From the IMG/VR virus record IMGVR_UViG_3300005664_000003, positions 1-57,755 of that record: 57,755 nt of DNA; one strand, given 5' to 3'. Under the pieces are notes generated by a model. It was given only the letters and a program-made list of their open reading frames with translations, searched no databases and was not told the origin of the DNA. This document shows positions 6,899 through 48,019 of this stretch, in pieces. The position numbers and the translations under genes were made by a program. The stretch comes from a virus. Within the stretch, counting starts at the first letter, position 1. Every line of letters begins with the position of its first letter.

Positions 6899-6920
6899 GC
6901 CCTAAAATTTGGTAGTATAA

Positions 6921-6977
6921 CATAAACCAGTTACCTTTACTCCTCAACTTTTGGAGTAAATACAAAACTGGTTTATG
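6921..6977 (+). promoter_or_regulatory. Two-tier RNA hairpin that buries the start codon of the next gene
   Basis: Bases 6921-6932 and 6966-6977 are perfectly complementary over 12 bp. Inside them, 6936-6943 and 6953-6960 form a perfect 8-bp stem with a 9-base loop. The last three bases of the outer stem are the ATG of the following gene (6975-6977). There is no U-run, so it is not a usual terminator. It could restrain translation, protect the mRNA end, or serve as an RNase III site. Confidence 0.65.
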
Positions 6978-17700: not shown

Positions 17701-20700
17701 AGTTAGTACCGAGGCGTTAAAAGAAGGGTTAAAGTCTGCTATAGACGCAAACCCTGCTCATGATGCTATGGTGTTAAATCAATTCATTAAAACAAACATA
17801 ATTGCAGGGCAATTAGGAAAGATAAACAATGTACTTTCAATAGATACTTTCCAGGATGCTACAGGAATAGAAGCCTTAGAAGCTATGTTACAACAGAAAA
17901 ATGAAGTAACTAATCCTGAAGCTTTAGTATATATCGACTCAAGAGTATTTGATACAGCAACAACACCAGCTGTAGGTAAGAGACTTGCCAGCTTCTTTAA
18001 GCACGGAATACAAGATGCACTTACCTATACTGGACAATTCTTCCCTTCTACCAGCATGGCTTACTCACAAGTAAGAACAGCTTATGCTGAGAATATAGGA
18101 CAAGCAAGCATTACTGATAAAGGTCTAATCAAACAACTTAACCAGTTTATTGATTACTATAACTTGGAAGGAGATAGTCTCCTCTCACGTACCTTGATTG
18201 CTATCCATCCTCAAAAAGGACAGGAAGATTACAGAAACCGTTGGTCATTATTCAGTGCAGAAAAGAGTATCTGGAAGTATATTGATCAAATGGTAGATAA
18301 GCACCCTGTTCTCAAGAACAACGAACTTATTAAAAATCTTGAGACAAGCAAAACAGGAGTTGATCAAGTACAGATTGTAGGTATTCGTAACACGGATAAC
18401 AATACAAATAAGACTGAAGTAACTAACGGATGGTATGAAATGCTTAACCACCCTAACATAGAAGTACGTGGGTTGGCTCATGACCTTATACGTTACGCGA
18501 TTATGACAACAGGGTTTAACTTTAATGCTAAATCCATGTTTGAACTTATTCCGGTTAGTTTCTGGATAGAATCAGGATTAGATAACGCATGGAAGAATAT
18601 AATTAAAGCTGCTCCTTCTATGAACATAGATCAGGAAGCTGCTGTAGTTAACTTTATTCGTCATAACTTCAAGAATCTTGACAGATTCCCTGAACTATAC
18701 GGTAAGTTCCAGAAAGATAAAGGGTTCTTCTCTAATATGATTAAGAACGCCAAGATAACTTCCGGAACAAGACATATAACTGAATTCTACTTATCTGACG
18801 AATACAGTGAAGCTGAAGTACTACCTAAATTCATAAGATTTAATGATCGTGAATTAGGAGATTACAGACTGTATGAGGCTGATCCAAAAGACCTGTCTCA
18901 CTTTAGAGAAGTACAACCTCTTGGGTCAAGAAACAACTTCTATGAAGTATCTGCTGATGGACGTAGTCAGAGTAAGGCACCAGGCAACAGGAAATTGAAC
19001 CTCAATCCGGACCCTTGGGGACTAGGGGGGGACAACTTGACTGTGCGTAGTCCTTTATTTGGTCGGGTGAATTCAGAGATAGATTCAAGACTGAGATTCT
19101 ATTTACCTACTGACAAAGAAGCAACATCTTCTGTGATCAAACGGTTGATGCTTGACGAAAGCAATCCCGAAACGTTGAGAAATCTTGAAATTCTGTTAAA
19201 GAACTCAAGTAAGATCAATACACCTATTATTCTGGATAGTACACTTGGGACTAACAACTTTGGTAAATTCATTTACAAAGGAGAAAGTGGTGCAAGTGAA
19301 ATCTTAATTAATAGAAATGGAGCGGTAGAATCTGAAAAGGAATTACGCCACGTTCTTACACACGAAATAAACCACGCATTCTCTGTAGCTGTTATACAGA
19401 ACCCGGAAGGAGAAGAACAGATCAACTTTGTAAGAAATCTGGATAGGATCTTCAATGAAGCAACTAAACTTCCTGATGTACAAGGTGAGTACGGTCTAAC
19501 AAACTCAAAAGAGTTTATAGCTGAACTAGCTTCTAATTCTAAGTTCAGAGCTAAGTTAAGAGGTACAAGTCTATGGAGCAGGCTTATAAGAGCTTTACGT
19601 AAGTTACTTGGGTTTACAGATAAGTTTGATCAAATCTTAGAGGAATACTACAAAGTACTTGACAAAGCTGATAACTTACAGAACTACAGTCCTGTAGAAC
19701 TTGGTTTTGAAAAGAAGGAAACTAAGGTTGGAAGTAAGAGAATAGACTTACTTGATCAAATGCTTGCGTCTCTTAAAGCCAGAGAAGAAAGACTTAAAAC
19801 AAAGGGCAAAAGAGCTGAAGCTAAACAACTTGGAGGAAACATAGAAGTACTTACTGAGTTGGTTAAAACTAAGCGTAACGAAGCTGTAGTTAAATACTTG
19901 ATTACAGTAGAGGAAGAAATGAATAAGCTGAAGGAAGCTTACAACTTAATGGCTAAAGATCCAGGTAAGATCAACCCTGATACACTCTTTGCTATGAGAG
20001 AACAGCTTGTGTCCTATAAGTTACTTGATGCCTTCTCTGACCAAATTCACCAAAACCCGGATAACTTTATTCCTGAAGGGGGTAATAGTGAGGTTCTTTT
20101 GAAGAGCTTGGATCAACTTCGTGCAGATGTACATAAAATGAACAATGACACAAGACGTCTTGCTATTAAGAGGTTTGCTTCAGTTATTAAGAATACCCTT
20201 ACTGACCCTAATATAACCCTTGAATCAATTGTAGATCAACTGGAAGTTGCAGATCGTGACATTGATTGGTTAAATCGCTGGACAGAAGTGGGCATGGAAA
20301 TGGATGACGTAGCAGTACGTACAGCACATAAAATGCTCACAAATAACACTACATCAGCTTACCGTGCGATTCAGGATGACCTTTATACTACAGAGAAGAA
20401 AAAACAGAAAGCTGTAGTTGTATTAAAAGTACCTACTGAAAAAGGTAAGTATAAGTGGGAAAAGAAGACTATAGAGTTTACCTCTACAGGTATGCTTAAG
20501 TCTTTAAATGAGTACGAAGGTTGGTTAAAATCTAAAGGCAGAAACCCAAACAGTATTGTAGATAAGTTTGCTCCAATCCTGGATATGGAAAGTCTTGCTG
20601 AGAACGAGAATGGTGTAAAACTAATTTCTCCTTGGAGCAAAGAAGGGAAAGCAATTCTTTCTATAAAAGAAGGTAGTCCTGATTTCCCTCTAAGACAGTT

Positions 20701-22645
20701 CTATGAAACCTTTGTGTTAGGTTACTTAAAGTCACAGGAAAACATACCTGCTCTTGCCATGAGACCCGGCTTGAGAATCCCTTCTATCCAACGTTCTATG
20801 CTTGAAGGTATTATTCGTGAAGAAGGTAAAGACAAATTTAATGTTCTAAAAGAACGTGCTATTGATGCAGTTCGTAAAAGATATGACGAAAAAGACTTTA
20901 AAGCTGTAGACGAGAATGGTAAGCCGCAAGAGTACATTCCTGTCAGATTCATAGCTAAACAGGACGGTAAATCTGGAAGACTAAGCACAAGGGAAGTAAG
21001 CTTGGACTTAGCCTCTACTCTACCACTCTTTATTCATGAAATGTATTCAAGAAAAGGACTTGAAAGCCTACACTCTGATCTTGAACTGGGTAAACTTGTA
21101 CTTGCTGAACGTGAAGTAATGAAGACAAGAAGAGTTAAAGGACCAGGCTTAACCCCTTGGTTAACAAGAGAAAGAACTGGTATTCCTTTAGCTTCAGGTA
21201 AGTTTGATACGATCAAAGGAGAGCAAAGCAAGTCCTTTGAAGCCTACGATTCACTACTTAGAAGATTCATGTACGGGCAAGTTAAGAAAAGCGAAGGAGA
21301 TGTAGAAAAAGATGGTAAGAAGTTCTCTGTATCCAAGATGGTTGATAGCTTCCTTGGATTCACTGGATTTAAAATCATGTTCGGTAACCTAGCTATACCG
21401 TTAACTAACGGTATTGTAGGAGAACTTACAATGGTAAAAGAAGTAGTTGGTGGAAACTTAATTGATAAAAAAGATTACGCTTACGCTAATAAATTCTTTA
21501 GTCAAATAGCATTACCTTCTGCTCAGGATCTTGGAAGAAGAGAGAAGAAAACCAAAGCAGGAAGAATATTAACTTACTTCAACCCTCTTGATCATAACAG
21601 AGCTGTAACTGACCTTGGTGTAGATACTAACTGGATGAGAACTATCTGGAATACACTTAGCAGAACAGGAGGAAGTTCAATAGAATTTTACCTTGGATCT
21701 AAAGCTATTGGTGCTACATTTAATAGATTTAAAGCTAAGAATAGCAAAGGGGAAGAAGTTCCGTTGTATGATGCTATTGAAGTAAGTAATACAGGTAAAG
21801 TAACATTATCAGAAGGGTATACCTACAAAGGTAAGAAGAGTATAAGCGGAGAAGATATAAATGAAATCCGCAACTACTCTATTCGGGTATACCAGTTAAT
21901 GAATGGTGTGTACAATCAGATGGATAAACCTGCTGTTAACGAATATGCTGCAGGTAGATTATTATTCTTCATGCGTAACTGGTTAATCCCTGGTATTCAA
22001 GCGAGATGGAAAACTAAGTATTACGATGAAAGATTGCAAAAAGAGAACGAAGGTCATTATCTCTCAGCTTTAATAGCGTTTAACAACAGTTATAGCAGAA
22101 ATGGTATAGTGCAGGGAACAATTGATACTTTACGTATCTTAAGCTGGTTTGGTGCAAGTAATCCTGAATTATTATTACTACCAAATGAATTAGAGCTTTC
22201 CCAGGAAGAGAAGGATAACATCATTAACATGAGAAAAGCTAACATCCGTAAAACGTTGTTTGAACTTTATTCTATTATTGTTTTAACAGCCCTTCTTGGA
22301 TTAGCTTGGGACGATGATGATGAGAGTTATACTAAGTACATGACCGCAAGAATAAGAAGAGAAATGAGTACTTTCTATTCTCCTTCTACAGCTTGGGAGG
22401 TATTACGTTCTCCTACAGTAGCACTCAACACAGTAGATGGTTTAAACAGAATACAAGGAGACTTGTTTAACTCTCTTGGAGCTGTAATAATGGGTGAAGA
22501 TCAACCAGTGTATGAATCAGGTCCGTATAAAGGAGAAAACAAGCTTTCTGCAGACTTAAAGAGACAGCTTGGTCTCGGGTTTGAAAAACAATTTGACGAT
22601 CTCTCCCGTAAAACAAGACTGATACAAAGAGGAGGATATAAATAA
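8768..22645 (+). CDS. Giant virion protein with DxDxD RNA polymerase core and two zincin motifs
   Basis: One uninterrupted 4,625-residue frame. Residues 2738-2742 read DFDVD, the DxDxD metal-binding signature of the YonO-like, single-subunit RNA polymerases packaged in crAss-like virions (known for phi14:2 gp66). Two HEXXH zinc-protease motifs occur: HEALH at 1378-1382 and HEINH at 3532-3536. Residues near 350-720 form long Lys/Glu/Gln coiled coils, and a Glu/Pro-rich linker lies near 680-720. A hydrophobic segment occurs near the C-terminus (about 4497-4512). The protein is about twice the phi14:2 enzyme, so polymerase and other ejected domains appear fused. In this phage type it is injected to transcribe early genes. 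Confidence 0.85.
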   Translation: MELAPGFGEELKPLAPIGGDDPGDPKKKKALAPGFGQQYPSLPNPTQQPTESPRLSKNYIAQADLENYMAGQQSGLELIGKTIGQAIPNAILGTVEAGSYLLDVEQMIDKLKGDEAEYTNWLADAMKQAKESIAQDSSLKVFQTAESREGFAPGDATWWASHTPDTIGSALSLMLPAAGVAGLVGKGARALKMGEGATKVAQGVGATLASRYAESTMEASAVYERAYTDLLNKGISPEVARMRAGQQASNVWNTNWIFAMQDFLQYSSMLKGFSTAAKGGIGKSIAEIATQTASEGAEEAGQFIVGEEAYRAAMDTETDYFGKGFNQRLYEYINDPEFKASTLLGAFGGGVFTAAGPLGRAAEKGSSRVADIVSKQVKNIVDLGLKKERANYVGDTATSQTIDDVQFAQTAFQKLKEGKLANYKQELEALKTSKNLTPEVRQNLDNYTQDIDFIADEQAKLKASKLPADVHERVLATKLEQRQLGRLDNALTNELREIEQELVNNKELPSELVNLKQTQANLEAYKKLASTNNQFQPKVAEIQKAYDQLKMSGELGFPNLNEALTTSRDNDLFSKTFQLVSTKEKQAAVKKNLAELTTPEGIAKARKEAETRKVNEQAKAVLNNPDAKQEEILQAAANTTDEALKTALAQKHQALVDSKKAANQEETKKFVEEPPAPIPSSEEVLVEPPTESEYAPEMEAPPVDDSAPIEIPFAGGITPEQATRWGGLTKEQVSSILERIEIEQKKEVPPVVTQQAEKDKKAEESRQRTTVPAWLKEVNEDGSATVYTNNITGETATADKIFAVDTETGQLLANTPKVLAGQQVILKLENDFPWTLTPGFKPDKVENYVINVYVEGNPRPIKQLPSADNPRLADQRVITYLRNEVIARGEVKTRIASKNVGTIRKSSTLNSLDILKSDYVQVNEEQWKFENTAHKPILGFIDFNGNITTPNIGAMKGITKNVIDQVNNTQIVPRSNDLAKLRGKVITFRTAPDGSKRIIGLEPRNLNQTEIDWLNNNIAQLLVSKDFTTLNNVVYLPQHSAGVYSTKGDKKPDVLELNRSRIHIVNTTANTADVLIPVKGTQPVWVIVDSKQVGEMLAAKPYAFRVMTPDGNKSEVFYNHAGQGQITTKFKELLSKQFKNVPVTNLNSEIRYTDPVTNKAYNTYYDYLVETSSVQTNLPGSKTMGVGEDSSYSFNQVALYLDPNIEESQFTLVEENDEPVITNIIGTEKDLRDRIESLDVEIRREKYSVNTSEGQFYKENGKWFDYKNKEVTDPIIIKIFEHNLAANLKGRKIDTTPDKALDDFFGPDAKLKPATEQGFKLLTEKELTWFKDNIGEQAIEVAQNVDRFISKNGIAAFGQYYNGLVTIAEFAPEGTAYHEALHFFADPSNGLVTKKQSELINKIGEEKLAEEFEKYKLSDGKYKPAEPVRNFFKKLWLMIKNLLGFKTPVEKLFAQLDNLNLSLEQQKAIQEKAKLQLDPAEPRYKKLPGFRYIKQQQESIVAWTSEVIRLSGELARQEEVSLGEYLTNPKNLDAILGSIKSNFEKDFERIKGSKERSKVDQARYYSYLAMGIGTPSAGEESFVGSFEDVTTATGLPEDGFRTKVLKDLSRYGFSVRLKDGSTYTNSQEEFAESVDNAELKSQDEAERLYDIDHTLINPSESMSNRVKLFLASIPEPVLDQSGMPTGENKQTVFGTTKFLDFRRVDGNLALKLRDASNPITKLTELAENDAIAKVVLDALMNEKNKGNIQLFNEFAAKYKRDGYYKKTVLHGTKKVPIDKNDPSDIDPENPFATHRIENFAKTIDSDRASSDRVLHNRWREEGVRKKIVDTDGTVNTKKAAAIFARLEAFKNKFYIAKQKKANLPYTEVKDEFNSILSELGVSVPNQMWKELDALPNPGFKYRKVENMFFGTRSRTLEQLLLNAKEGKDPFEGSSLLTNLAKTSSVYIDDSRGGAYRNDEGNLENPINWPSALTELANNIKNNPQDVVSYYEQDSFYSDNQFLQAIKNSSDKIDLNFTSVIRRNEDNPKAFEKRTEIESMIMRFTTFYNNGGSEGYFFTGTPADKTKQPIISLPKKKGTQAAKDFLFTVLKGTMNSEVVRIQRLAKFQNSANEDNALPKDIANLKNSSRFIYIPGLNTVPKLKESLSSGDISTEEYTKALQTAEKIIEDFIESEFSAFKSFLAENDIININEKGEVTSERIPTQILDRKSLSAFLEEFFYNDLAWRLEVSKVLMGDIAFYKSPDDYFKRAYQTVTPGIKGYSETPVTLTRGIYAKQMKVNTPEYLNSLAELAGDKSIAEKYQSVNKTDAQSLMDIDSYKVLAESLGQWSKDHERLYKLAWSKGITVRYATRQLLDKELITEEQAKRLRSAAAKILLQPFKPFQFNNRKITLPDGSTMIIKEQFKDSITPITPELTKIHSGFRDLLAFMKANNIGIMSAEDTTKVGLYGVINDISQPVQDWQKRVVNLSDFRFPQLIPDKKKTDIKGTQFHKLILGNIDDKTMYKVGSTSMLGSTLKEKYNELWEEKIQASASNLQKRLGVGKEFKLSDDKAKRKEQLFKLKTTLEQELMSRDLNENYQDVLELVRAVNNEIDFAVPISFPAFGQKFQSILTNLWKKNVLGQDSPGYSAINLADFGVGYDDELKFVTNNEGELTEAEIALPLDNLGQIGLRYGDNILPNGRIIWDKLTENQKKALQFILYRIPTSNKSSMIPVRVVKIVPSNLNNVVIIPGELTIQQGLDFDVDKSQLLRRVTDKEGKIDSESVDTKLFNIYWGILTNKAHTKELLTPLASPTLEAKFKEYQEMGLIDLGTSSSVASTQADVKAEIRNKDGKAEIGIASRFNTGHTVLQTIKDFIGVNVEIGITIDQKYKFNELGRTFDASGTLISENHAESQQAALDAAKNPLLAYLGVVTGTMASFHTMIDFGVPLPVITDFFMQPVVREWTKFYKQEGQDSRKATEKLFESYPAIKDQYNILDRDETVSTEALKEGLKSAIDANPAHDAMVLNQFIKTNIIAGQLGKINNVLSIDTFQDATGIEALEAMLQQKNEVTNPEALVYIDSRVFDTATTPAVGKRLASFFKHGIQDALTYTGQFFPSTSMAYSQVRTAYAENIGQASITDKGLIKQLNQFIDYYNLEGDSLLSRTLIAIHPQKGQEDYRNRWSLFSAEKSIWKYIDQMVDKHPVLKNNELIKNLETSKTGVDQVQIVGIRNTDNNTNKTEVTNGWYEMLNHPNIEVRGLAHDLIRYAIMTTGFNFNAKSMFELIPVSFWIESGLDNAWKNIIKAAPSMNIDQEAAVVNFIRHNFKNLDRFPELYGKFQKDKGFFSNMIKNAKITSGTRHITEFYLSDEYSEAEVLPKFIRFNDRELGDYRLYEADPKDLSHFREVQPLGSRNNFYEVSADGRSQSKAPGNRKLNLNPDPWGLGGDNLTVRSPLFGRVNSEIDSRLRFYLPTDKEATSSVIKRLMLDESNPETLRNLEILLKNSSKINTPIILDSTLGTNNFGKFIYKGESGASEILINRNGAVESEKELRHVLTHEINHAFSVAVIQNPEGEEQINFVRNLDRIFNEATKLPDVQGEYGLTNSKEFIAELASNSKFRAKLRGTSLWSRLIRALRKLLGFTDKFDQILEEYYKVLDKADNLQNYSPVELGFEKKETKVGSKRIDLLDQMLASLKAREERLKTKGKRAEAKQLGGNIEVLTELVKTKRNEAVVKYLITVEEEMNKLKEAYNLMAKDPGKINPDTLFAMREQLVSYKLLDAFSDQIHQNPDNFIPEGGNSEVLLKSLDQLRADVHKMNNDTRRLAIKRFASVIKNTLTDPNITLESIVDQLEVADRDIDWLNRWTEVGMEMDDVAVRTAHKMLTNNTTSAYRAIQDDLYTTEKKKQKAVVVLKVPTEKGKYKWEKKTIEFTSTGMLKSLNEYEGWLKSKGRNPNSIVDKFAPILDMESLAENENGVKLISPWSKEGKAILSIKEGSPDFPLRQFYETFVLGYLKSQENIPALAMRPGLRIPSIQRSMLEGIIREEGKDKFNVLKERAIDAVRKRYDEKDFKAVDENGKPQEYIPVRFIAKQDGKSGRLSTREVSLDLASTLPLFIHEMYSRKGLESLHSDLELGKLVLAEREVMKTRRVKGPGLTPWLTRERTGIPLASGKFDTIKGEQSKSFEAYDSLLRRFMYGQVKKSEGDVEKDGKKFSVSKMVDSFLGFTGFKIMFGNLAIPLTNGIVGELTMVKEVVGGNLIDKKDYAYANKFFSQIALPSAQDLGRREKKTKAGRILTYFNPLDHNRAVTDLGVDTNWMRTIWNTLSRTGGSSIEFYLGSKAIGATFNRFKAKNSKGEEVPLYDAIEVSNTGKVTLSEGYTYKGKKSISGEDINEIRNYSIRVYQLMNGVYNQMDKPAVNEYAAGRLLFFMRNWLIPGIQARWKTKYYDERLQKENEGHYLSALIAFNNSYSRNGIVQGTIDTLRILSWFGASNPELLLLPNELELSQEEKDNIINMRKANIRKTLFELYSIIVLTALLGLAWDDDDESYTKYMTARIRREMSTFYSPSTAWEVLRSPTVALNTVDGLNRIQGDLFNSLGAVIMGEDQPVYESGPYKGENKLSADLKRQLGLGFEKQFDDLSRKTRLIQRGGYK

Positions 22646-24146: not shown

Positions 24147-24502
24147 TTTAGTAATTCGTAAGTTAAGATTAACTGGACGTAATGTAAGATTTGATCAAAT
24201 CCTATAACTACAAAACCATTATGGTAGTCTCCTTCATCAAAACACTGTTTAACAATGTGACTAGTAATAAGATCAATAGCAAAGTGTGTAACGAATGTAA
24301 TTACTGCAAAGACTACACCTGTCCCGAAATGTTCAAAGTGAATGGTAGAGAAGAGCAACCAAACTAAAGAGTAGGTTGCTACATGTTTTAGTAATGCAAA
24401 CATGTCGTCTGATTTATTAGACGCTTGCCAATGAGTCTGTAGAGCAAAATCTGCTAACCAGTGGATTAACCCAATGGCTAGCAGTAATTTGTAGCTTATC
24501 AT
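24143..24502 (-). CDS. DUF3307-type membrane protein
   Basis: The 119-residue protein has four hydrophobic segments. The motif HWLADFALQTHW (about 14-25) and a later HFAIDLITSH are typical of the DUF3307 family of small phage and bacterial membrane proteins. Conserved His and Asp in membrane segments hint at metal or substrate binding, but the function is not known. It lies between the NAMPT-like and phosphatase genes with 4-base overlaps on both sides. Confidence 0.7.
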   Translation of the reverse strand: MISYKLLLAIGLIHWLADFALQTHWQASNKSDDMFALLKHVATYSLVWLLFSTIHFEHFGTGVVFAVITFVTHFAIDLITSHIVKQCFDEGDYHNGFVVIGFDQILHYVQLILTYELLK

Positions 24503-26214
24503 ACTTTCAATCTTTCTCTGATTTCTTCCAGGGTAGTAGTTCTTACTAACTCACCGTTTTTGAAAACAGTTTCAAGTAAGCCTCCGTTTTCTTGTTCCCA
24601 AGTACATTGATCATTTACTTTCAACTCATCAGTTCCATCAAACTTCTGCATTGCTGGATGAGTATCCCAATAATTGTTAAATACTTGTAAAAGACCTTTC
24701 TTAGACCTCTTAGTACCATCATCAGTAATTGGATCTTTGTAGATTTCTCTAGTTTCAACAAGATCTTCTCTACCAGTCAGACTGTAAGTTGCTTTGATAA
24801 GATCAAGATGTTTAGGGTTAGAACGATCAAAAGCTATTTCAACTTCTTCTCCTCCAGCCTTCTTTACTTTAACAGTAGGTACATTTAATACTTCACCGTA
24901 GGTAGCTTTCATCGCAAAGCCGAAAGTATCACGAGTATTATACTGGTAAGTGTAACTACCAATACCAAGAACCACATTAGTCGAAGCGAAACCTTTAGCT
25001 TTGAGTCTCTCACAAATCTGAGCGGCACGTTCCAGAGTGATAGAATCGCCATAGATAGCACCAATATGAGGATCAAGTTCTTTATATCCATATTCATTTA
25101 CTTTACCTCCAAACAAATCCCAGAGAAGTTCAATTACACCTTTTCTTTCTGGTTCAGGTACTTCCTTAAGTTGTCCTCCACGCTTGTAGTAATATTTCCC
25201 ATCCGTATTTTGATAATACTCTACTCCACATAGAATATCTACAGGGTCACCAGAATCTGGACGAATAACAAGTTTACCATCTCTTGAAAGGATTTGATCC
25301 TTAATTTGAGGAAGGTGAACTGTCAGGACTTCCCAAAGATTCCATGTATCAGAAACGACACTAAGAATACCAGTAGGATATAGATCCAGAAGCCTTTTGA
25401 AGGTGTCCACCTCAGCTTCTTTAGTACCCATACACATAACACTGTGCTCAGTAGCAGGTACAGAAGCACCGATAAGCCCTGTAGCTCCGTAAGATTCTTC
25501 AAGCTGATATATAGCTGGAATAGTATCCGTTCCGGTAAACGATGTAAGATGACCCATGCCAGAAAGAATAGCGGATTCAATACTAGACATACCACGCATA
25601 GAAAAGTCATGACCTTGCCACTGAACGAATTCTGAAGATCCTGTAGTTTCCAATGCGTATTTTGAAAGGACTTTTTTGTATTCATAAGCTATTGTTGCTG
25701 AAGTAATTGGTTGCCACATCATAGTTGAAATTAAGGTTTCCAAGTAATTTGTTAACCAGGCAAAGTCAGGATGTGTATTTTTAATTGTAAAGCAGGGAAC
25801 TCCAATTGGAACTAAAGTACCTTCTGGAACAGCTTTAATTTCAATAGGTAAATAACCTAAATCCCACAAAGCTTCAATGTGCTTAGTATCTACAGGAATG
25901 TGCTTCTGATACTCTTTAATAACAGAGGACTTGTAAATTAACTTGATAGTGGTTAATGTTTTACTGTCAACTCCTTGAAGACCTCCAAGTCTTTCAACTT
26001 CATTCTCTATGTCCTGTTTGTGAAAGAAGAGCTTGTCAAATTCTTTAATCAAATACTCAAGACAGAAATGCTGTAATCCAAAGAATACAACCTTGTCTAT
26101 TCCAGGAATTCTACTCTTTCTTGGAGTGAAGTTGGAATAGATCATTGTAGTACCTTCTGGTAGCATACGATGATGTTCCGTTTTATAATAATCAACTAAT
26201 AGTAGTGGATTCAT
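24499..26214 (-). CDS. NAMPT-like nicotinamide transferase (Namat-type candidate)
   Basis: The 571-residue protein follows nicotinamide phosphoribosyltransferase throughout. Landmarks are the N-terminal DYYKTEHHRMLPEGT, YLETLIS (about 157-163), the catalytic histidine in SVPATEHSVM (H257) and RPDSGDP (318-324), which contacts the phosphoribosyl substrate. Length is somewhat above human NAMPT (491). In phages, a NAMPT-like enzyme next to a Prs-like enzyme forms NARP1, in which nicotinamide is joined directly to ADP-ribose pyrophosphate to rebuild NAD+ destroyed by host defences. The Prs-like gene is two short genes upstream and no NMN adenylyltransferase is visible, which favours NARP1. Confidence 0.9.
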   Translation of the reverse strand: MNPLLLVDYYKTEHHRMLPEGTTMIYSNFTPRKSRIPGIDKVVFFGLQHFCLEYLIKEFDKLFFHKQDIENEVERLGGLQGVDSKTLTTIKLIYKSSVIKEYQKHIPVDTKHIEALWDLGYLPIEIKAVPEGTLVPIGVPCFTIKNTHPDFAWLTNYLETLISTMMWQPITSATIAYEYKKVLSKYALETTGSSEFVQWQGHDFSMRGMSSIESAILSGMGHLTSFTGTDTIPAIYQLEESYGATGLIGASVPATEHSVMCMGTKEAEVDTFKRLLDLYPTGILSVVSDTWNLWEVLTVHLPQIKDQILSRDGKLVIRPDSGDPVDILCGVEYYQNTDGKYYYKRGGQLKEVPEPERKGVIELLWDLFGGKVNEYGYKELDPHIGAIYGDSITLERAAQICERLKAKGFASTNVVLGIGSYTYQYNTRDTFGFAMKATYGEVLNVPTVKVKKAGGEEVEIAFDRSNPKHLDLIKATYSLTGREDLVETREIYKDPITDDGTKRSKKGLLQVFNNYWDTHPAMQKFDGTDELKVNDQCTWEQENGGLLETVFKNGELVRTTTLEEIRERLKV

Positions 26215-26402: not shown

Positions 26403-26475
26403 AAAAGATTTTAGCTATTAATCTGTTAAACCAGTTATTATCTACTACCTGATAGACTTTTTTACTTTCGTTCAT
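26377..26475 (-). CDS. Micropeptide of 32 residues coupled to the Prs-like gene
   Basis: ATG at 26475 overlaps the Prs-like stop in an ATGA arrangement, and the frame ends at 26377 inside the next gene. The peptide (NESKKVYQVVDNNWFNRL near its start) is amphipathic, with aromatic residues. The 4-base coupling is the only reason to call it. Function unknown. Confidence 0.4.
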   Translation of the reverse strand: MNESKKVYQVVDNNWFNRLIAKIFYGVDFESN

Positions 26476-27245
26476 ATTATTTTAAATTGAGTTACAAATG
26501 GATGATCTACATCCTTTACTGAATTAGTACAGAAGATGTGTGATAAACCACAATCTTCTAATACATTAATACCCTTGGAAAAATATCCATGAGTAGCATA
26601 GAGGTACACACGCTTTGCTCCTTGTTCAAGAAGCTTTTTAGCAAGAACGATGAATGTGTACCCACCATCGCAAATGTCGTCTACAATAAGACAATTCTTG
26701 TCTTTTACATCTCCTGTAAACTGAAGATCTATTTTTCCTTCGTTATCTCTGTGCTTAACTCCCGCAACTACAGGAAGTTCAAGATTAGTACCTAGTTCAA
26801 ATACTTTCTTGTACGCTCCGGCATCGGGGGAAACAAGTACTATCTCTTCTTTTGTTAATTTAGCTATAGACTCAACGGCTTGAGTTACAAAGTGTTCAAC
26901 ACCTTCTTTGTAAGACTTATTAATTAAAGCAAGTGTTACGTCTGAATGAGGATCCAGGATATTAACAGTTGTAAAATTACAGCTATTAATTACTTCAGCA
27001 ATTAACTTTAAGTCAAAGGATTGGTGAGGATGAAACCTACGATCACTTCTTTGACCAAACATACAAGGTATTGCTACATGAATGATTGGGTCTGCATAAG
27101 CTGTGTGAATAGCATCAGCTAATGCTCTTAAGAAGAACAAGTCTTCATAAGAGTTTATTCTTTCTCTGATCTCCAACGGACCTTCTATATCAGTTATTTT
27201 AACTGAGATCTGTCCATCAGGATACTTTATTCTTTCGTATTTCAT
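26472..27245 (-). CDS. Prs-like pyrophosphokinase (Adps-type candidate of NARP1)
   Basis: From ATG at 27245 the protein has 257 residues. It carries the N-terminal KYPDGQ, the FGQRSDRRFHPHQ region equivalent to the ATP/metal region of PRPP synthetase, SPDAGAYKK, and the PRPP loop IVDDICDGGYT. It is shorter than bacterial Prs (about 310). The frame stays open upstream to about 27335 with a non-ATG start, but that stretch overlaps a strong RNA fold and is probably not coding. In NARP1 the Prs-like Adps makes ADP-ribose pyrophosphate from ADP-ribose. Pairing with the downstream NAMPT-like gene supports that role over plain PRPP synthesis. Confidence 0.85.
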   Translation of the reverse strand: MKYERIKYPDGQISVKITDIEGPLEIRERINSYEDLFFLRALADAIHTAYADPIIHVAIPCMFGQRSDRRFHPHQSFDLKLIAEVINSCNFTTVNILDPHSDVTLALINKSYKEGVEHFVTQAVESIAKLTKEEIVLVSPDAGAYKKVFELGTNLELPVVAGVKHRDNEGKIDLQFTGDVKDKNCLIVDDICDGGYTFIVLAKKLLEQGAKRVYLYATHGYFSKGINVLEDCGLSHIFCTNSVKDVDHPFVTQFKII

Positions 27246-27254
27246 AATAAAAGT

Positions 27255-27366
27255 AAGCCATCGCAAGATCGTCAATCTTGCATCTTTACGCTCGTCTTCG
27301 TAGGCTCTATTTTTACATACAGGAGAAGCTATCAAAAACCCGTATAGACTTTGAGCTAAATGGCTT
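27255..27366 (-). ncRNA. Structured leader RNA before the NAD+ genes
   Basis: Bases 27360-27366 and 27255-27261 form a perfect 7-bp closing helix. Inside are a hairpin at 27339-27345 / 27317-27323 (7 bp, one G-U) and one at 27276-27281 / 27263-27268 (6 bp, 7-base loop) that sits one base from the closing helix. The layout recalls a tRNA acceptor plus T arm, but the T-loop consensus is missing. The element ends 10 bases before the Prs-like ATG. It could be a riboswitch-like leader or a processed tRNA-like RNA. Confidence 0.5.
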
Positions 27367-31605: not shown

Positions 31606-31981
31606 ACTCTCTTAGTTTCTTCACTATTGCCATAAAGTCATTCATATACATTATAGCAAACCTGTCTCTCGTTATGAACCTATTACCAACCTTTTGAGTT
31701 TGGTTATGTAGAATAACTTTTGTTATTCCTGGTTCATTAGGTAATTCTGCAAGAACAGCAGGATACTTTAAAGTACCTGCAACATTCTTACATTGAACTG
31801 CCCAAGGCAATCTGCCTGAATTTATTTCATCTCTGTTCACCAGATCAATCTTCTGAGCATCTCTGCTTCTGTTAGAACTTCTGGACGAAACAACGTCATT
31901 AAATCCAGCTTGCTTAAAGGCATTAACACAGAACAATTCAAATCTATGTCCTGCTTGCCTGTTTCTCTTTCCGTTCGTCAT
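31526..31981 (-). CDS. PD-(D/E)XK nuclease, Holliday-junction-resolvase-like
   Basis: The 151-residue protein has E15 in GHRFELF, D46 in KIDLV, and QCK (63-65), in the order and spacing of Hjc-like PD-(D/E)XK nucleases. SRSSNRSRDAQ just before D46 matches the basic strand of that fold. It probably cuts branched DNA during recombination or before packaging. The C-terminus overlaps the ung start by 80 bases. Confidence 0.75.
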   Translation of the reverse strand: MTNGKRNRQAGHRFELFCVNAFKQAGFNDVVSSRSSNRSRDAQKIDLVNRDEINSGRLPWAVQCKNVAGTLKYPAVLAELPNEPGITKVILHNQTQKVGNRFITRDRFAIMYMNDFMAIVKKLREYEQRDVRRVVVQSTGTGNESRTVPTT

Positions 31982-32817
31982 TAAAGGTTTTGTTCTTCAA
32001 CTACAGTTTTAGCAAGTTCTACAAGGTTTGCTTTAGAAGGAACACTGTAAGGACCAATTAAATAACTATCCATTACCTCTTTGTCTACATAGTTCCTTTC
32101 CACACTGTTCTTGCTTATAAACTGCCCAAATCCACTACTTGTTGACAATACTTCCTTAATAGCCCTGCCTTCGTAAACGTCAGGGTTGTTTATAGTAAAG
32201 AGTTTAAAGTCTTCAAAAGGAATGTTGAAAGGTTGTTCTAAATGCTGGCATATTCTTATTAGTGGAATATGTTTAGCTTTAACTAACACTAAAGCACATG
32301 GTTTAAAAGCAAACAACAAATCATGTCTCCTGAAAATAGTATGAGCTAAAAATTGTTTACTGGACAAGGTGCTTATTGCAGAACTGTAATTAGAACCTTG
32401 CATTTTACAAACCAAACCTGGAAGTGCATAATAAGTACCATCATAGAAGCATGGAGACAACCCGTTAAAAGTCTTAACTAAGTCATTCCAGCCTGAGCCA
32501 TAACTAACATTATTCTTAACAACCCTGTAACTTAAAGGAACTGAATATCTGTCAGGATAACTATAGTTGAATTGTTTTATTAGTCTTTCTCTTACCTCCT
32601 CTGCTGTATAGTTTTTGCTACTAACTCCCAAGTCTTTTTCATCAGATAAAACTAAATACATCCCCTGCCCCTGTAGAACGTAGTTGAATCTATACCTTCT
32701 GTGAGTGTAAATAACATCAGAATCGAAAGCTGTAAATAAAGGAATAAACTGATCAGGGCTTGTTACTTCAACTGGATAAGTTAAAATCCATTCTTCTCCA
32801 CTAAACTTCGTTAACAT
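31981..32817 (-). CDS. Hypothetical protein of the E1/JAB cluster, 278 residues
   Basis: The protein is soluble, alpha/beta, and rich in Tyr and Phe, with a Cys-containing segment (FKPCALVLVKAKH, near residue 170). No family identified. It follows the ThiF-like gene with a 17-base overlap and precedes the nuclease with a shared base, so it is part of the same transcript. It could be the conjugation partner or target of the ubiquitin-like cluster, but only position supports this. Confidence 0.6.
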   Translation of the reverse strand: MLTKFSGEEWILTYPVEVTSPDQFIPLFTAFDSDVIYTHRRYRFNYVLQGQGMYLVLSDEKDLGVSSKNYTAEEVRERLIKQFNYSYPDRYSVPLSYRVVKNNVSYGSGWNDLVKTFNGLSPCFYDGTYYALPGLVCKMQGSNYSSAISTLSSKQFLAHTIFRRHDLLFAFKPCALVLVKAKHIPLIRICQHLEQPFNIPFEDFKLFTINNPDVYEGRAIKEVLSTSSGFGQFISKNSVERNYVDKEVMDSYLIGPYSVPSKANLVELAKTVVEEQNL

Positions 32818-33556
32818 AAACTTCTGTTTTTACTTTGTACTTTGGTTGATCGAAAATCATTAATTGTAAATGAAATTCAATATTTGAAGTAGTTCTTGGA
32901 ACATTCTCCTCTAAACCATTATTAAACCAATTAGTAATCTGAGCAGTCATTAATGATGCTATTAAAGCCCCGCAATGACTTGTAGCTTTCATACTGCAAG
33001 GTAATTCTACCCTTTCTGATTCAGGAAAATAAGTTTGCTCATAAGCTGTAAAATCCAGTTCCAAAGAGTCTTTGGAAAGAGTGAAAATCTGACCATTTTC
33101 TGCTGACAATCTTCCGTCAACAAAGAATGACTTTTCTTTACCATTAGCCCTCCACTCCTTGTATACAAGTTCCCTTGCTTTAAGGTTGTCAAAACCTACG
33201 CAAACTACATCACTCTGAGCTATCAAGTTAGTCCACAACCCTCCATTTTCATCTATAAAGGTTTCTACAGGGGTTATGTTATTCTCTCCACAAAGTCTTG
33301 TAACTACATCTGAAATGGCTTCAACTTTACTCTTACCTACGTCTTCCTTACCGTACAATTGACCGGCAAGATTTACTTCATCTACTACATCGTTGTCTAC
33401 TACATAAATAGTAGCCCCGGCTCTTGCAAGAAAGAAAGTTAACCAGGATGATATTCCTCCAGCACCTCCAATAAAGATACTGGAATTAGAGATCGGCTCG
33501 AACCACGGAAGACCCTTGAAACGGCCAAAGTGAGTCGTATTCTTCTCTGAGCTCAT
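32801..33556 (-). CDS. ThiF/E1-like adenylyltransferase
   Basis: The 251-residue Rossmann protein has the nucleotide loop GGAGGISS (30-37), the acidic DND (54-56) and the NLAGQLY stretch (62-68) that matches the NL-RQ segment of E1 enzymes. Cysteines at 187 and 195 in the crossover region could be the thioester site. E1-like enzymes adenylate the C-terminus of a ubiquitin-like protein. The gene overlaps a JAB protease gene by 71 bases, a pairing found in PRTRC and other bacterial ubiquitin-like systems. Confidence 0.85.
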   Translation of the reverse strand: MSSEKNTTHFGRFKGLPWFEPISNSSIFIGGAGGISSWLTFFLARAGATIYVVDNDVVDEVNLAGQLYGKEDVGKSKVEAISDVVTRLCGENNITPVETFIDENGGLWTNLIAQSDVVCVGFDNLKARELVYKEWRANGKEKSFFVDGRLSAENGQIFTLSKDSLELDFTAYEQTYFPESERVELPCSMKATSHCGALIASLMTAQITNWFNNGLEENVPRTTSNIEFHLQLMIFDQPKYKVKTEVYVNEV

Positions 33557-34583
33557 TAGTTAAATTCTTTAAATGTCCTACAAGCCAACCGTGATGATGA
33601 TTTAGAAACTTCCTAATACCATCAAGAACTTCTGTATGTTCAATCTTAGTGTCAGAAAAGTGTTTATCAAACCAAACACTTGTAAAGTAAGCTTTAAACG
33701 CTTTCTTATAGTTTTCCATATCTTCCACCTTCAAATCCCGATCAACTACTGTTATTGATTCAAGTGGAGTTACTAACTTCAAACAGTTTAAAGAAACAAG
33801 TTCCGGGAAGTTATTAAGAACTCTCTTCATTGTTTCCTGACTAACGTCTGTAGCCGCATCTCCCTCATGGGGAAGTAATACTTTATTAGTACTTTCTTGT
33901 TGAGGTGGTTTGTAGCTATACTGCGAGGTTTTCTTTCTTGCTGCAAGCTGTTCTGTTTGATCTACAAACCAATCTTCTTGCTCATAAGTAGTCTTACAAG
34001 CAATGGTAAATACACCAGGTTTTTGTTTTTCCTCTTTCTTTACCGCTTTTTTCCAAGTCTTCCAACTCTTAAACTTCCATTCTGTTCTTGTAAGAACTAT
34101 CTCCTTGGACTCCATAGCAATCGCTAATTTGCAATCTAACTCACACTTATAATTTACAATAAGTGAAAGGAAGATAGGTAACTTAGGAGCATTTTGTTCT
34201 AAGTCAGTGTTATCTGTTACTGAATGAAACACGTTCATGTTATGGTGGCTATGAATTTTACCCACATACCAGCCCGGTTCGGGATTCATTGGATCAATTT
34301 GAGGGTATTGCTGGAAACATTTAATCCAATCTACACTCCCCTCAAAGCTGGTGAATCCTGCGTCTCCAAAATCCATTGGGAACACAGCTTCAGCCTTTAT
34401 TTCTAAGTAAGCTTTATCGTTTTTTGTGAATTCGTCAACATCCCCTTCAACAATTTGGTAGACTAAAAGTCCTGACCATTCTGTTCCTGTAGGACATTGA
34501 CTATGCAGGAAGTGTATTTGCCCTGCTAACTTCTCTGTTACTACTACTAGTACTTCCCTCTTTGGGGTTTGTTCTTTTTGCAT
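33486..34583 (-). CDS. JAB/MPN metalloprotease (deubiquitinase-like)
   Basis: The 365-residue protein has a complete JAMM zinc site: E35, H111-x-H113 in KIHSHHN, S121 and D124 in SVTDNTD. The enzyme half covers about residues 1-160. The rest is helical with a Lys-rich linker and may bind partners. JAB proteases next to E1-like genes process or remove ubiquitin-like tags. Overlaps with both neighbours (83 bases upstream, 71 downstream) indicate one translational unit. Confidence 0.85.
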   Translation of the reverse strand: MQKEQTPKREVLVVVTEKLAGQIHFLHSQCPTGTEWSGLLVYQIVEGDVDEFTKNDKAYLEIKAEAVFPMDFGDAGFTSFEGSVDWIKCFQQYPQIDPMNPEPGWYVGKIHSHHNMNVFHSVTDNTDLEQNAPKLPIFLSLIVNYKCELDCKLAIAMESKEIVLTRTEWKFKSWKTWKKAVKKEEKQKPGVFTIACKTTYEQEDWFVDQTEQLAARKKTSQYSYKPPQQESTNKVLLPHEGDAATDVSQETMKRVLNNFPELVSLNCLKLVTPLESITVVDRDLKVEDMENYKKAFKAYFTSVWFDKHFSDTKIEHTEVLDGIRKFLNHHHGWLVGHLKNLTNELREEYDSLWPFQGSSVVRADL

Positions 34584-35772
34584 GTTTATTTAATGCTTGT
34601 ATCAATATTGAATTAGTTCCTCTGGTTACTACCTCTATTGCTGTTCTTGATAACCTGGTAATTGTTTTTGTTTTATTCGTATTTTGTTCTTCTTCTATCA
34701 CTCTTGGTTTGATACCAGGAAGGTGTTTATTAAGTCTATAGCTTTCATAGTAATCTAAAACATCTCTCGGTAAGCTATAAGTGTTTGAAGTCTGATTAAC
34801 TCCACTAACCACATACTGTCCTGTATCTTCATTCCACTGTTTTAAGTGAGCCCCAGCTACTATTTTAGTTAAAGTATTTACCTCAAAGTCAAAAAACTTT
34901 TTGCTAACCAGACCAGGATCAAATACAGGAATTCCTAATGGAGTAAAGTAAATGCTGTCAAGATTAGTATCAATAAAAGACATACATGTTTTACCACCTA
35001 ACTTTTCCAGATTTAAAATTTCATCTGTTGTACGAAAAGCACTATCTCCAGAATCTGCTATAGCTCCAGACAAGCTTAAAATACTCATGTGGGGAGTACC
35101 TTCAAGACTTTCCCAACATAAATAAGAGTTTAACTGTAAAATAAATAACTCAAACTGTTCCTTTGTCACACTGCCTGAACAACACAAATTATTGACCATC
35201 TTTTGAAAGGTACTACCTCCCCCTAAACAGAAAGGATTATTAAAAGAGTGATAATTAGTTTTTAAGTGTGAATGAATGTAACCTTTTGCTAGTTCTCTTT
35301 GACTTAAAGAGAACCTCATACCATATAAAGATGAAAGTAAAGTACCGTTTGTTGGATCTACTGTAAAATTAACAACTAAGTCATAGATTTTATGACTTGC
35401 ATCATGACTGTTAGTTATTGTTAACTCAGGGTAGTGAATGTAAATTATACCATTATCGTCAGGCATATAATAATGCCCAGGATGTAAGCTCTCCAACACT
35501 TCTTTAAATTCAACTATAGCATCTGGTAACTCAACTTCTATTAAATCTTTACGTAATACGGGTAAAAATGCACTATCTCCAATACCGTGTACCTTTACAT
35601 AAGATACTGGACCGTGATTTGCTAATACACTTAAATCATATTCTTCTTTGACTGGTAGTTTATGTCTTCCTTCTGAATGTCCGGGACCCAAGGAATAGTG
35701 AGTAACGTATCTAGGATAAGAACCATAAAATTCTTCTATAGCCTTTCGGCTAATTTTAAATAATTTTCTCAT
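34501..35772 (-). CDS. Possible E2-like protein of the JAB/E1 cluster, 423 residues
   Basis: First gene of the cluster, after a terminator. A beta-rich N-terminal region is followed by GYIHSHL (164-170) and FCLGGG with Cys182. This HxH then xCLG arrangement resembles the His-Pro-His to Cys-Leu-Gly stretch around the catalytic cysteine of divergent prokaryotic E2 enzymes. The C-terminal 50 residues are basic and low complexity. The E2 assignment is an inference from this motif and the JAB/E1 neighbours. It could equally be an unrelated partner. Confidence 0.5.
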   Translation of the reverse strand: MRKLFKISRKAIEEFYGSYPRYVTHYSLGPGHSEGRHKLPVKEEYDLSVLANHGPVSYVKVHGIGDSAFLPVLRKDLIEVELPDAIVEFKEVLESLHPGHYYMPDDNGIIYIHYPELTITNSHDASHKIYDLVVNFTVDPTNGTLLSSLYGMRFSLSQRELAKGYIHSHLKTNYHSFNNPFCLGGGSTFQKMVNNLCCSGSVTKEQFELFILQLNSYLCWESLEGTPHMSILSLSGAIADSGDSAFRTTDEILNLEKLGGKTCMSFIDTNLDSIYFTPLGIPVFDPGLVSKKFFDFEVNTLTKIVAGAHLKQWNEDTGQYVVSGVNQTSNTYSLPRDVLDYYESYRLNKHLPGIKPRVIEEEQNTNKTKTITRLSRTAIEVVTRGTNSILIQALNKHAKRTNPKEGSTSSSNREVSRANTLPA

Positions 35773-35793
35773 TTATCTGTTTGCAAAGAGTAA

Positions 35794-35819
35794 AAAGGTG
35801 AGGTATTAACCCCACCTTT
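35794..35819 (-). terminator. Rho-independent terminator before the E2/JAB/E1 cluster
   Basis: A 10-bp stem with one G-T pair (35810-35819 with 35794-35803) closes a 6-base loop and leads into T-rich sequence on the minus strand. It lies between the 49-residue SSB-tail gene and the 423-residue gene. The JAB/E1 cluster therefore probably needs its own promoter or read-through. Confidence 0.7.
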
Positions 35820-35842
35820 AAATAAAAACTCTATTTTTCCTT

Positions 35843-35992
35843 TTAGAAAGGAGTATCGTCTTCTTCGCTTGGTTTTTTGCTATTCACTAAGTGATTTTGT
35901 TGTTCAAACTGCTTTACAAAAGCATCTATAACTTCAAGCACTTCAGGAATAACATTACCTGATTCTTCGTTAGTCGTTTTTGCCTGAGTCAT
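35843..35992 (-). CDS. 49-residue protein ending in an SSB-like acidic tail
   Basis: A complete ATG-to-TAA frame, overlapping the previous gene's end by 23 bases. A helical middle (PEVLEVIDAFVKQFEQQN) is followed by the C-terminus SEEDDTPF. Acidic residues followed by xPF is the tip by which bacterial SSB proteins recruit repair and replication enzymes (for example DDDIPF). There is no OB fold. It may act as a detached or competing SSB tail, or be the interaction tail of a phage single-strand-binding complex. Confidence 0.6.
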   Translation of the reverse strand: MTQAKTTNEESGNVIPEVLEVIDAFVKQFEQQNHLVNSKKPSEEDDTPF

Positions 35993-36215
35993 TTTTCTCT
36001 ACTAAGAAGTACAATGTAAAGTCTCCTTCAGGTAGGGATTGACTGTCGCTTGTAAGAGAAGTACTGGTTTCTTTTACAAAGGCTTTCATTCCAATGGACC
36101 GAGCGCCTAATTCAGCGTCTTCGCTCTTCAGCTGGCCCCAGGTAGTAGCTGCCGAAAAGACAGTGTTCTGACCTGGTGCTGCTGTAGATGTCCACACAAT
36201 TTTACGTGTGCTCAT
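35970..36215 (-). CDS. Small beta-rich protein, possible ubiquitin-like fold (81 residues)
   Basis: The predicted order is strand-strand-helix-strand-strand: RKIVWTS, NTVFSAAT, TWGQLKS, GMKAFVKE, and the closing DSQSLPEGDFTLYFLVEK. The LPEGDFTLYFLV end resembles the last strand of MoaD- and PRTRC-C-like ubiquitin folds. It lacks a terminal Gly-Gly, ending SGKND, so a protease would have to trim it. It is two genes upstream of an E1/JAB cluster but separated by a terminator. G/C content is higher than that of neighbours. The fold call is tentative. Confidence 0.5.
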   Translation of the reverse strand: MSTRKIVWTSTAAPGQNTVFSAATTWGQLKSEDAELGARSIGMKAFVKETSTSLTSDSQSLPEGDFTLYFLVEKNDSGKND

Positions 36216-46792: not shown

Positions 46793-48019
46793 TTAATTTC
46801 CAGGCTTTACATCAACAGCAAGTTCTTTAGCAGCTTTAGCACTCATTAACTCCATGAAGTTAAGAGCATTATTACTATTACCAGTAGAACCTGTTTGAAT
46901 CTGGGGAACCAGGTTACCCTGAAACTTACCAAATGCTTCCCACTTCTTCTCCTCAGAGAACTTCCAAGCATCTAATCGCTTGTCAAGAGCGTTATCTGCC
47001 TGAATAGTAGTCTTCTTCTCATAAGCAGCTACATCAGCAAGTGTTTGACGTTTCTTAGCTTCAATCTGAGCAGTTTCATACTCAATCTGCATTTGCAGTT
47101 TGTTCTGACTGGCTACAGCAACTTTAGTTTGAGCTGCTACAGTTTGTTTAGTCTGTTCCTGCTTTTGCTGATATTCAATTTCTACAAGTTTCTTCTTACC
47201 TTCAGCTTCAGCTGTTAAAGACTGTTGCTGGGCGGTCATAAGTTCCTGCTTAGAAATAGCTGATTTAGTTACTGCGTCAATAATCTTGACAAGTTTCTGG
47301 TCAACCTTATCCTCGTAATCTACATCAGTGATTGCAGCATCGGCAACAGTAATTCCATACTCCTTAATAGAAGATATTTTACGTTTGGCAGTACCTGATT
47401 TATCAGTCTGAACTTCAGTTTGGTATACTCTTTTCTTTTCATGTTCAAGTGAATCATAAACATACCCCTCTTCAGTTCTGAGCAAGAATACTCCATCTTT
47501 TAATTGATCTAAGAAATCCTGAGCCATTTGTGCCCTTCCTCCTCCATAATGCTTCTCACTACTCATTAACTGAGCTGAAGATTGAAGACACTCTTTAGTA
47601 TAGGGAGCAAGTCTTTTAGCTACCAGGGATACAGGAGTTCTGTGGGTATTGTGGATTAGGATCATCTCCTTTTCATCATTAGGCAGAATATACTGAGTAA
47701 TTCCTTTCACATCAGCTGTTGTAGCATCACTGAAACGAATCATTACCTTACCCACTTCAATACCGTTATCTTCTAGTTCCAAAGTAGGCGTTTCAGCATT
47801 GTAAGTTACTGAAATCTGGTTTGGCCATTCTTTTTCCTTGGCGAAGAATCCTGCATAAAAAATACCAGGTGCAAACTGGACTTTCTGAGTACCGTCTGTT
47901 CTTTCTACGACTGTACGATTACCGGCATCATTCCACGAAAAGGGGTTTACAATAAGAAATAGGATAAAGAGCACTATGGCTACTACTCCCATTCCAATCA
48001 TTTTAACTTGTTTGTTCAT
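46793..48019 (-). CDS. SPFH/band-7 (prohibitin-like) membrane protein
   Basis: The 408-residue protein has an N-terminal membrane segment (about 8-26), an SPFH domain with the IKEYGITVADAAITDVDYED stretch, then a long Ala/Gln/Lys/Glu coiled coil (about 245-345). This is the order of prohibitin-like proteins, which form membrane rings or scaffolds. In phages such proteins may protect or remodel the host membrane. A 45-residue membrane peptide gene overlaps its start by 17 bases. Confidence 0.8.
   Translation of the reverse strand: MNKQVKMIGMGVVAIVLFILFLIVNPFSWNDAGNRTVVERTDGTQKVQFAPGIFYAGFFAKEKEWPNQISVTYNAETPTLELEDNGIEVGKVMIRFSDATTADVKGITQYILPNDEKEMILIHNTHRTPVSLVAKRLAPYTKECLQSSAQLMSSEKHYGGGRAQMAQDFLDQLKDGVFLLRTEEGYVYDSLEHEKKRVYQTEVQTDKSGTAKRKISSIKEYGITVADAAITDVDYEDKVDQKLVKIIDAVTKSAISKQELMTAQQQSLTAEAEGKKKLVEIEYQQKQEQTKQTVAAQTKVAVASQNKLQMQIEYETAQIEAKKRQTLADVAAYEKKTTIQADNALDKRLDAWKFSEEKKWEAFGKFQGNLVPQIQTGSTGNSNNALNFMELMSAKAAKELAVDVKPGN

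Follow-up and report, generated by a model that had tools for sequence, protein, structure and literature searches.

What might a set of ubiquitin-like conjugation genes do in a bacterial virus, when the known role of such conjugation in bacteria is chiefly the defence of the host? The question is raised by a locus in the IMG/VR virus record IMGVR_UViG_3300005664_000003, analysed as one stretch of 57,755 nucleotides (hereafter, the window). In this DNA, an earlier note, made from the letters alone, had claimed a cluster of E2-like, JAB and E1 genes. The claim holds: the ThiF match, the JAMM signature and the E2-like residues were all found, and the recomputed coordinates, strand and 17- to 83-base overlaps of the open reading frames (ORFs) are identical to those listed before. 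The minus-strand ORFs of 423, 365, 251 and 278 amino acids (aa) overlap successively by 83, 71 and 17 bases. A ubiquitin-like partner, on whose presence in the genome the note had made its reading depend, adjoins the cluster at 35970–36215, directly upstream of the E2-like gene; it was absent from the note's gene list. The best explanation of the locus, and one that we consider quite probable, is a phage-encoded, self-contained ubiquitin-like conjugation pathway, the activity of which is proposed here from the features below.

35970–36215, minus strand: ubiquitin-like protein (Ubl), 81 aa, with a predicted beta-grasp domain and a conserved glycine
34501–35772, minus strand: probable E2-like (UBC-fold) protein, 423 aa, assigned by predicted active site and model core
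33486–34583, minus strand: JAB/JAMM metalloprotease, 365 aa, with a complete JAMM motif
32801–33556, minus strand: E1/ThiF adenylating enzyme, 251 aa, assigned by a PF00899 match
31981–32817, minus strand: 278-aa protein of unknown function, placed by position alone

Judged by its genes, the window is a fragment of a crAss-like phage (Crassvirales), a member of the predominant group in the human gut virome. The primase/UDG neighbourhood of the cluster is like that in crAss001, and a single 4,625-aa ORF (8768–22645, plus strand) resembles in part the catalytic RNA polymerase subunit g066 of Cellulophaga phage phi14:2. Querying IMG/VR with the E1 family yielded 80 loci, and hidden Markov models (HMMs) of each gene were run on 86 sequences, including phage records and the window. 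E1 was found in 86/86, E2 and JAB in 84 each, and Ubl in 81. Wherever one of the genes is missing, a contig end interrupts the locus. The one exception is locus L055, which seemingly has no Ubl but does have an 81-aa ORF at the expected position; this ORF ends ...TRTKAGN and is evidently a Ubl that has diverged. The order Ubl-E2-JAB-E1 is constant in the named relatives and in essentially all IMG/VR loci that lie whole on their contig (the longest cluster-bearing environmental contig has 166 kb), and a crAss001-type primase gene lies upstream of the cluster in 80 loci. An overlap of the E2 gene with the JAB gene, with a median of 89 bases, is seen in 77 of 84 loci and suggests coupled translation; the Ubl gene is separated from the E2-like gene by 197 bases in the window (35773–35969), a long gap next to the median of 61 bases in relatives. 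The named carriers belong to the Crassvirales family Steigviridae (crAss001, DAC15, cr111_1) and to the Fipvunavirus phages of Flavobacterium psychrophilum. In bacterial genomes, the E1 search returned one short contig of a metagenome-assembled genome (L087), within the reach allowed by the pattern method, and this result is compatible with a phage-borne system.

The median pairwise identity within the families (71–75 proteins each) is 26% for Ubl, 19% for the E2-like protein, 25% for JAB and 37% for E1. Even when the window and its nearest relative are both kept out of the HMMs, these recover the window proteins (Ubl, E=6e-16; E2, 6e-37; JAB, 3e-41; E1, 1e-62). Because these leave-out HMMs recover all four proteins and because the residues described below are invariant at such low identity, the likeness of the clusters goes beyond chance. 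The near-invariance of the catalytic residues in these divergent sequences also argues that selection has kept all residues needed by a working pathway.

The 251-aa protein is, by its sequence, a ThiF/E1 enzyme beyond doubt. PF00899 (ThiF) matches it with E=1.4e-24 and 87 bits against a cut-off of 28, and the full nucleotide site reported in the earlier note is indeed there, with the GxGGI nucleotide loop, D123 and the predicted catalytic C187 (32996–32998). Within the family, GxGG and D123 are kept in 75/75 proteins and C187 in 74/74, mostly in the context C-[ST]-x-K-Q-[TS]; C187 is thus predicted to be the catalytic cysteine of a conjugating-type E1. Matches in the PDB include MccB, UBA5, MoeB, Uba1, NEDD8-E1 and Cap2 (Cap2 structures, 9e-6). 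The crAss001 counterpart of this E1 gene is gp76.

According to its model, the 81-aa protein is a ubiquitin-like beta-grasp modifier, with its glycine in register with Gly76 of ubiquitin. The AlphaFold2 prediction (65 homologues; mean pLDDT 86.3) shows the order strand-strand-helix-strand-strand-strand of a beta-grasp. Structural alignment gave Z 8.8 to DIX domains and about 7 to ubiquitin, ISG15, FAT10, SUMO and NEDD8, and Foldseek gave a probability of 1.00, though with E of about 2e-3. A Z of about 7–9 alone is insufficient proof of kinship, and the weight is carried by the fold, the glycine and the gene neighbourhood together. Residues 1–78 of the model lie over residues −2 to 76 of both ubiquitin (4ii2_B) and NEDD8 (3gzn_I), the two chains being taken from activating-enzyme complexes, and G78, the last aligned Ubl residue, falls on ubiquitin Gly76. 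The C-terminus reads ...EKNDSG78 followed by KND (G78 codon, 35982–35984); in the family alignment G78 is invariant (71/71) and S77 is kept in 68/71. At the corresponding position, crAss001 (gp79), DAC15, cr111_1 and Flavobacterium phage Fpv3 encode larger proteins, to whose N-terminus the window protein aligns. Most Ubls of the relatives have such a long C-terminal extension behind the usual terminal motif K-x-K-S-G. The glycine is never the last residue in the 71 distinct Ubls: it is followed by R (L007), K (L042), KF (L058) or KND (window), and otherwise by 64 to 252 residues, so that the full range is 1 to 252. Since no Ubl terminates at the glycine, a processing step is expected and Ubl is probably made as a precursor, for which the natural trimming enzyme is probably the JAB protein, whose gene lies two places downstream. 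The tail domain was also sought as a separate gene in the window, with no match. In L058 (2722–3922), an ORF starting like an HNH homing endonuclease splits the Ubl domain, which ends KIKSG-KF, from the tail domain.

The 365-aa protein is a JAB/JAMM (MPN+) protein by the zinc-site pattern E + HxH x7 S xx D. All residues of the full JAMM site claimed in the note are in place, namely E35 (34479–34481) and H111-S-H113, S121 and D124 (within 34212–34253), and the motif E...HSHxxMxxFxSxTD is kept in the family (E35, 69/69; H111, 70/73; H113, 73/73; S121, 74/75; D124, 74/74). The Prok-JAB model matches the window protein with E=0.005 and 17 bits, below its curated cut-off of 25 bits, and it matches 5/5 homologues scanned, at best with 6.5e-5. 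Weak matches in the PDB are to CSN5 and archaeal JAMM1. Group I introns are often found in important phage genes, and in these phages such introns (Rfam RF00028) split the JAB gene at L023:5142–5354, L048:5749–6051 and L061:4537–4796, and the E2-like gene at L036:3207–3438. The JAB gene is also split into two ORFs in L003 (Fpv1, 4722–7014), L035 and L067, where no group I intron reached the threshold; the JAB halves of Fpv1 are separated by an opposite-strand ORF (5238–5987). Introns are known in core genes of other crAss-like groups (PMC7886860).

The 423-aa protein is likely an E2-like enzyme, as its modelled core suggests. Structure prediction against E2 folds was proposed in the earlier note as a check and has been run. 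The AlphaFold2 model is well predicted mainly at residues 85–235 (mostly pLDDT above 80–90). The core begins with a helix (85–96) and continues with three long strands within 109–157, H169, C182 and helices 188–198 and 204–218. In this model the order of elements matches the UBC domain. Re-aligned with VIA-align, almost all of the top 50 neighbours are E2 enzymes and the remainder mainly RWD domains, so the unrelated structural protein that the note had considered as the contrary outcome did not emerge. The predicted active site consists of H169 (35266–35268) and C182 (35227–35229), with the histidine preceding the cysteine by 11–20 residues in nearly all family members. C182 and G184 are kept in 74/74 proteins, H169 in 73/73, and E221-S222..G225..P227 in 74/74. 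The HxH...CLG segment described earlier is present as H167-S-H169...C182-L-G, and only part of it is conserved: H169 and C182 are invariant, whereas H167 is variable, the triplet at position 167 being HSH in 59 proteins, QSH in 10 and FSH in 3, with the first histidine replaced in 13. In one locus (L045:3867 onward), the E2-like ORF has 639 aa, of which about 200 are additional; its match to the family falls into two parts, and the additional residues are possibly an intein.

From the identities, order, conservation and residues of the genes and from the beta-grasp fold, all of which are read from sequence or model, and more weakly from the UBC fold, we infer the following reactions, including the trimming by JAB and the kind of targets. 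Ubl would be made with residues behind ...SG, and the JAB metalloprotease would cut there, exposing the C-terminal glycine. The E1 enzyme would adenylate this glycine with ATP and take Ubl onto Cys187 as a thioester. Ubl would then pass to Cys182 of the E2-like protein, with His169 assisting, and the E2-like protein would attach it to one or more target proteins, from which the JAB protein could also remove it. Because the cluster keeps a constant place behind the primase gene, the targets suggested are proteins that the phage makes or encounters while its genome is replicated (replication proteins of the phage, or host proteins); a structural role is less favoured. As a tentative elaboration, it is conceivable that the crAss-like lineage tags phage replication or host proteins with the viral Ubl, and that the long tails are partner proteins freed by JAB, which can be likened to the fusion of eukaryotic ubiquitin to ribosomal proteins.

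One possible use of the cluster may be counter-defence, that is, defeating the antiphage systems of the host that employ Ubls (BIL, type II CBASS). The JAB protein could strip host Ubl from phage proteins, or phage Ubl could pre-occupy the same lysines. Bacterial systems of such type do defend against phages (for CBASS, PMC10449767, PMC11153139), and the window also carries a likely NAD-restoring gene pair of counter-defence type, described below. A protease alone would suffice for this purpose, yet E1, E2 and the phage's own Ubl are retained throughout. Moreover, all 80 loci with a primase match have the cluster at one fixed position in the replication block, while anti-defence genes would usually be expected to be patchy. 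We therefore regard counter-defence as rather unlikely to be the main role; the fixed replication-block position together with the full conjugating set favours a core function.

Several observations weigh against a conjugation pathway as described. The Z of the E2-like model is at most 5.7, under the clear-match level of the tool, and the 423-residue model contains large uncertain parts. Plain Foldseek run on this model returned nothing significant. In a comparison of the E2-like family profiles with PDB sequences and Pfam, no E2 was matched and no profile links the family to any E2 model. The Ubl tails have no common residue after the glycine, the cut site being placed by the glycine alone. 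Neither an E3 nor a substrate was identified, and the reactions of the pathway are proposed from sequence and model. The first three of these points would also fit a 423-aa protein that is an unrelated thiol enzyme or ligase, with Ubl transferred by other chemistry or with E1 acting with JAB alone. In sequence searches, the only convincing matches of this protein are PHROG families of unknown function, and its invariant E-S-x-x-G-x-P motif (221–227), which sits behind the last core helix, is foreign to the classical E2 signatures. The helix-strand-strand-strand-His...Cys-helix-helix order, the E2/RWD neighbours and the strict co-occurrence with E1, JAB and Ubl argue otherwise, and we consider an unrelated enzyme improbable. 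Least probable is a sulfur carrier, in which Ubl would be a ThiS/MoaD-like thiocarboxylate carrier activated by E1, trimmed by JAB and delivering sulfur to a nucleotide, tRNA or cofactor: E1 does match ThiF/MoeB models and Ubl, JAB and E1 sets are known in sulfur chemistry (Iyer et al., 2006, PMC1779556), but the E2-like protein with its invariant His/Cys pair is always there, CxxC occurs in 1/75 E1s and the paired CxxC of the ThiF/MoeB zinc site in 0/75, a rhodanese or other sulfur-transfer domain was not seen among the window proteins scanned, and the nearest Ubl folds are DIX, ubiquitin, ISG15, NEDD8 and SUMO, a molybdopterin synthase chain appearing just once, at rank 50.

Next to the four genes of the proposed conjugation pathway, the 278-aa gene, which overlaps the E1 gene, had been placed within the cluster by the earlier note and its protein put forward for comparison with E2 folds. 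Its standing as an E2 candidate or as a conserved component finds no support: the protein has no match in scans of the family libraries, and its match to a seeded HMM vanishes (E=15) once the window is left out. Under this window-free model it is dissimilar to the gene in the same place of crAss-like phages, and as a fifth component it is unproven. Elsewhere on the minus strand of the window, a Nampt-like phosphoribosyltransferase gene (24499–26214; phrog_448, E=1.5e-185) is adjoined by a ribose-phosphate pyrophosphokinase-like gene (26472–27335; phrog_619, E=3e-61). By sequence, the pair looks like the phage NAD+ reconstitution pathway NARP1 (Adps, Namat), a known phage counter-defence (PMC12774641). 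The same strand encodes an SPFH/Band 7 domain protein (46793–48019; PF01145, E=1.1e-5; phrog_11908, E=1.3e-53) and a 573-aa protein of phrog_850, annotated as RNA-binding protein, with a weak DUF2828 match (50292–52013).

In a literature search that left preprints and subscription journals largely outside, no paper linking crAss-like phages with ubiquitin-like proteins was found, and the cluster genes are not mentioned, under the terms searched, in the crAss001 isolation paper, the crAss-like genome survey or the virion structure paper. Within this scope, a complete Ubl-E1-E2-JAB set conserved on phages in the replication block appears to be undescribed. Current database names hide the ubiquitin-like nature of these genes, which are labelled thiamine biosynthesis protein ThiF, metalloprotease domain containing protein and hypothetical protein, the last also being the label of Ubl. 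The whole set is found here on viruses, some of them related to those that are most abundant in the human gut. Some carriers have been grown in the laboratory, namely crAss001 and PhiCrAssBcn (Bacteroides intestinalis), DAC15/DAC17 (B. thetaiotaomicron) and the Fpv-type phages (Flavobacterium psychrophilum), which makes it possible to test directly whether proteins are tagged in infection, and which ones.

Among known systems, the bacterial BIL-type operons encode BilA (Ubl), BilB (E2), BilC (JAB) and BilD (E1). The phage cluster is predicted to share with them the same four activities on adjacent genes, so that the likeness lies in the gene set, with E2 placed by fold and active site. However, BIL is a bacterial defence, whereas the phage cluster is virus-encoded, lies inside the replication block by the primase gene and has mostly long-tailed Ubls. 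No Bil-labelled family was among the PADLOC/NCBIfam matches, the presence of such models in those libraries not being established. Bacterial operons with Ubl, E1, E2 and JAB genes have been classified as types 6a–6e, and in PRTRC/type 6d there are likewise a stand-alone Ubl with a terminal glycine, JAB, E1 and E2-like genes (Iyer et al., 2006, PMC1779556). In type 6d, the E2 histidine follows the cysteine (PMC1779556), in contrast to the phage cluster, where it comes before it. As a PRTRC system the cluster was considered and rejected, the scores falling far short of the curated cut-offs (34 bits for ThiF, against 144.75, and 14.4 for A, against 101.8; B and C unmatched), and an E1 search of plasmids, aimed at annotated PRTRC operons, gave no match. 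A phage-borne Ubl with a conserved glycine is also known in lambdoid and T1 phages, where Iyer and colleagues proposed that TAPI is cut at this position by the JAB protein TAPK (PMC1779556). TAPI and TAPK belong to tail assembly and come without E1 or E2, unlike the crAss-like cluster with its E1 and E2-like genes in the replication block. The E1 domain is further related to those of CBASS type II Cap2/Cap3 and 6A-MBL (PADLOC E1-E2 models, E down to 1e-10). In CBASS type II, a single fused protein carries E1 and E2, and a separate Ubl gene is absent from the operon. A modified nucleotide cyclase is part of that system, and none lies in the neighbourhood of the phage cluster. The precursors of eukaryotic ubiquitin, NEDD8, SUMO and ISG15 are likewise beta-grasp proteins with removable residues behind the active glycine. 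They differ in ending GG, where the phage Ubl usually has K-x-K-S-G, and in the phage the trimming would fall to a JAMM protease. Some bacterial viruses, then, probably tag proteins much as human cells do.

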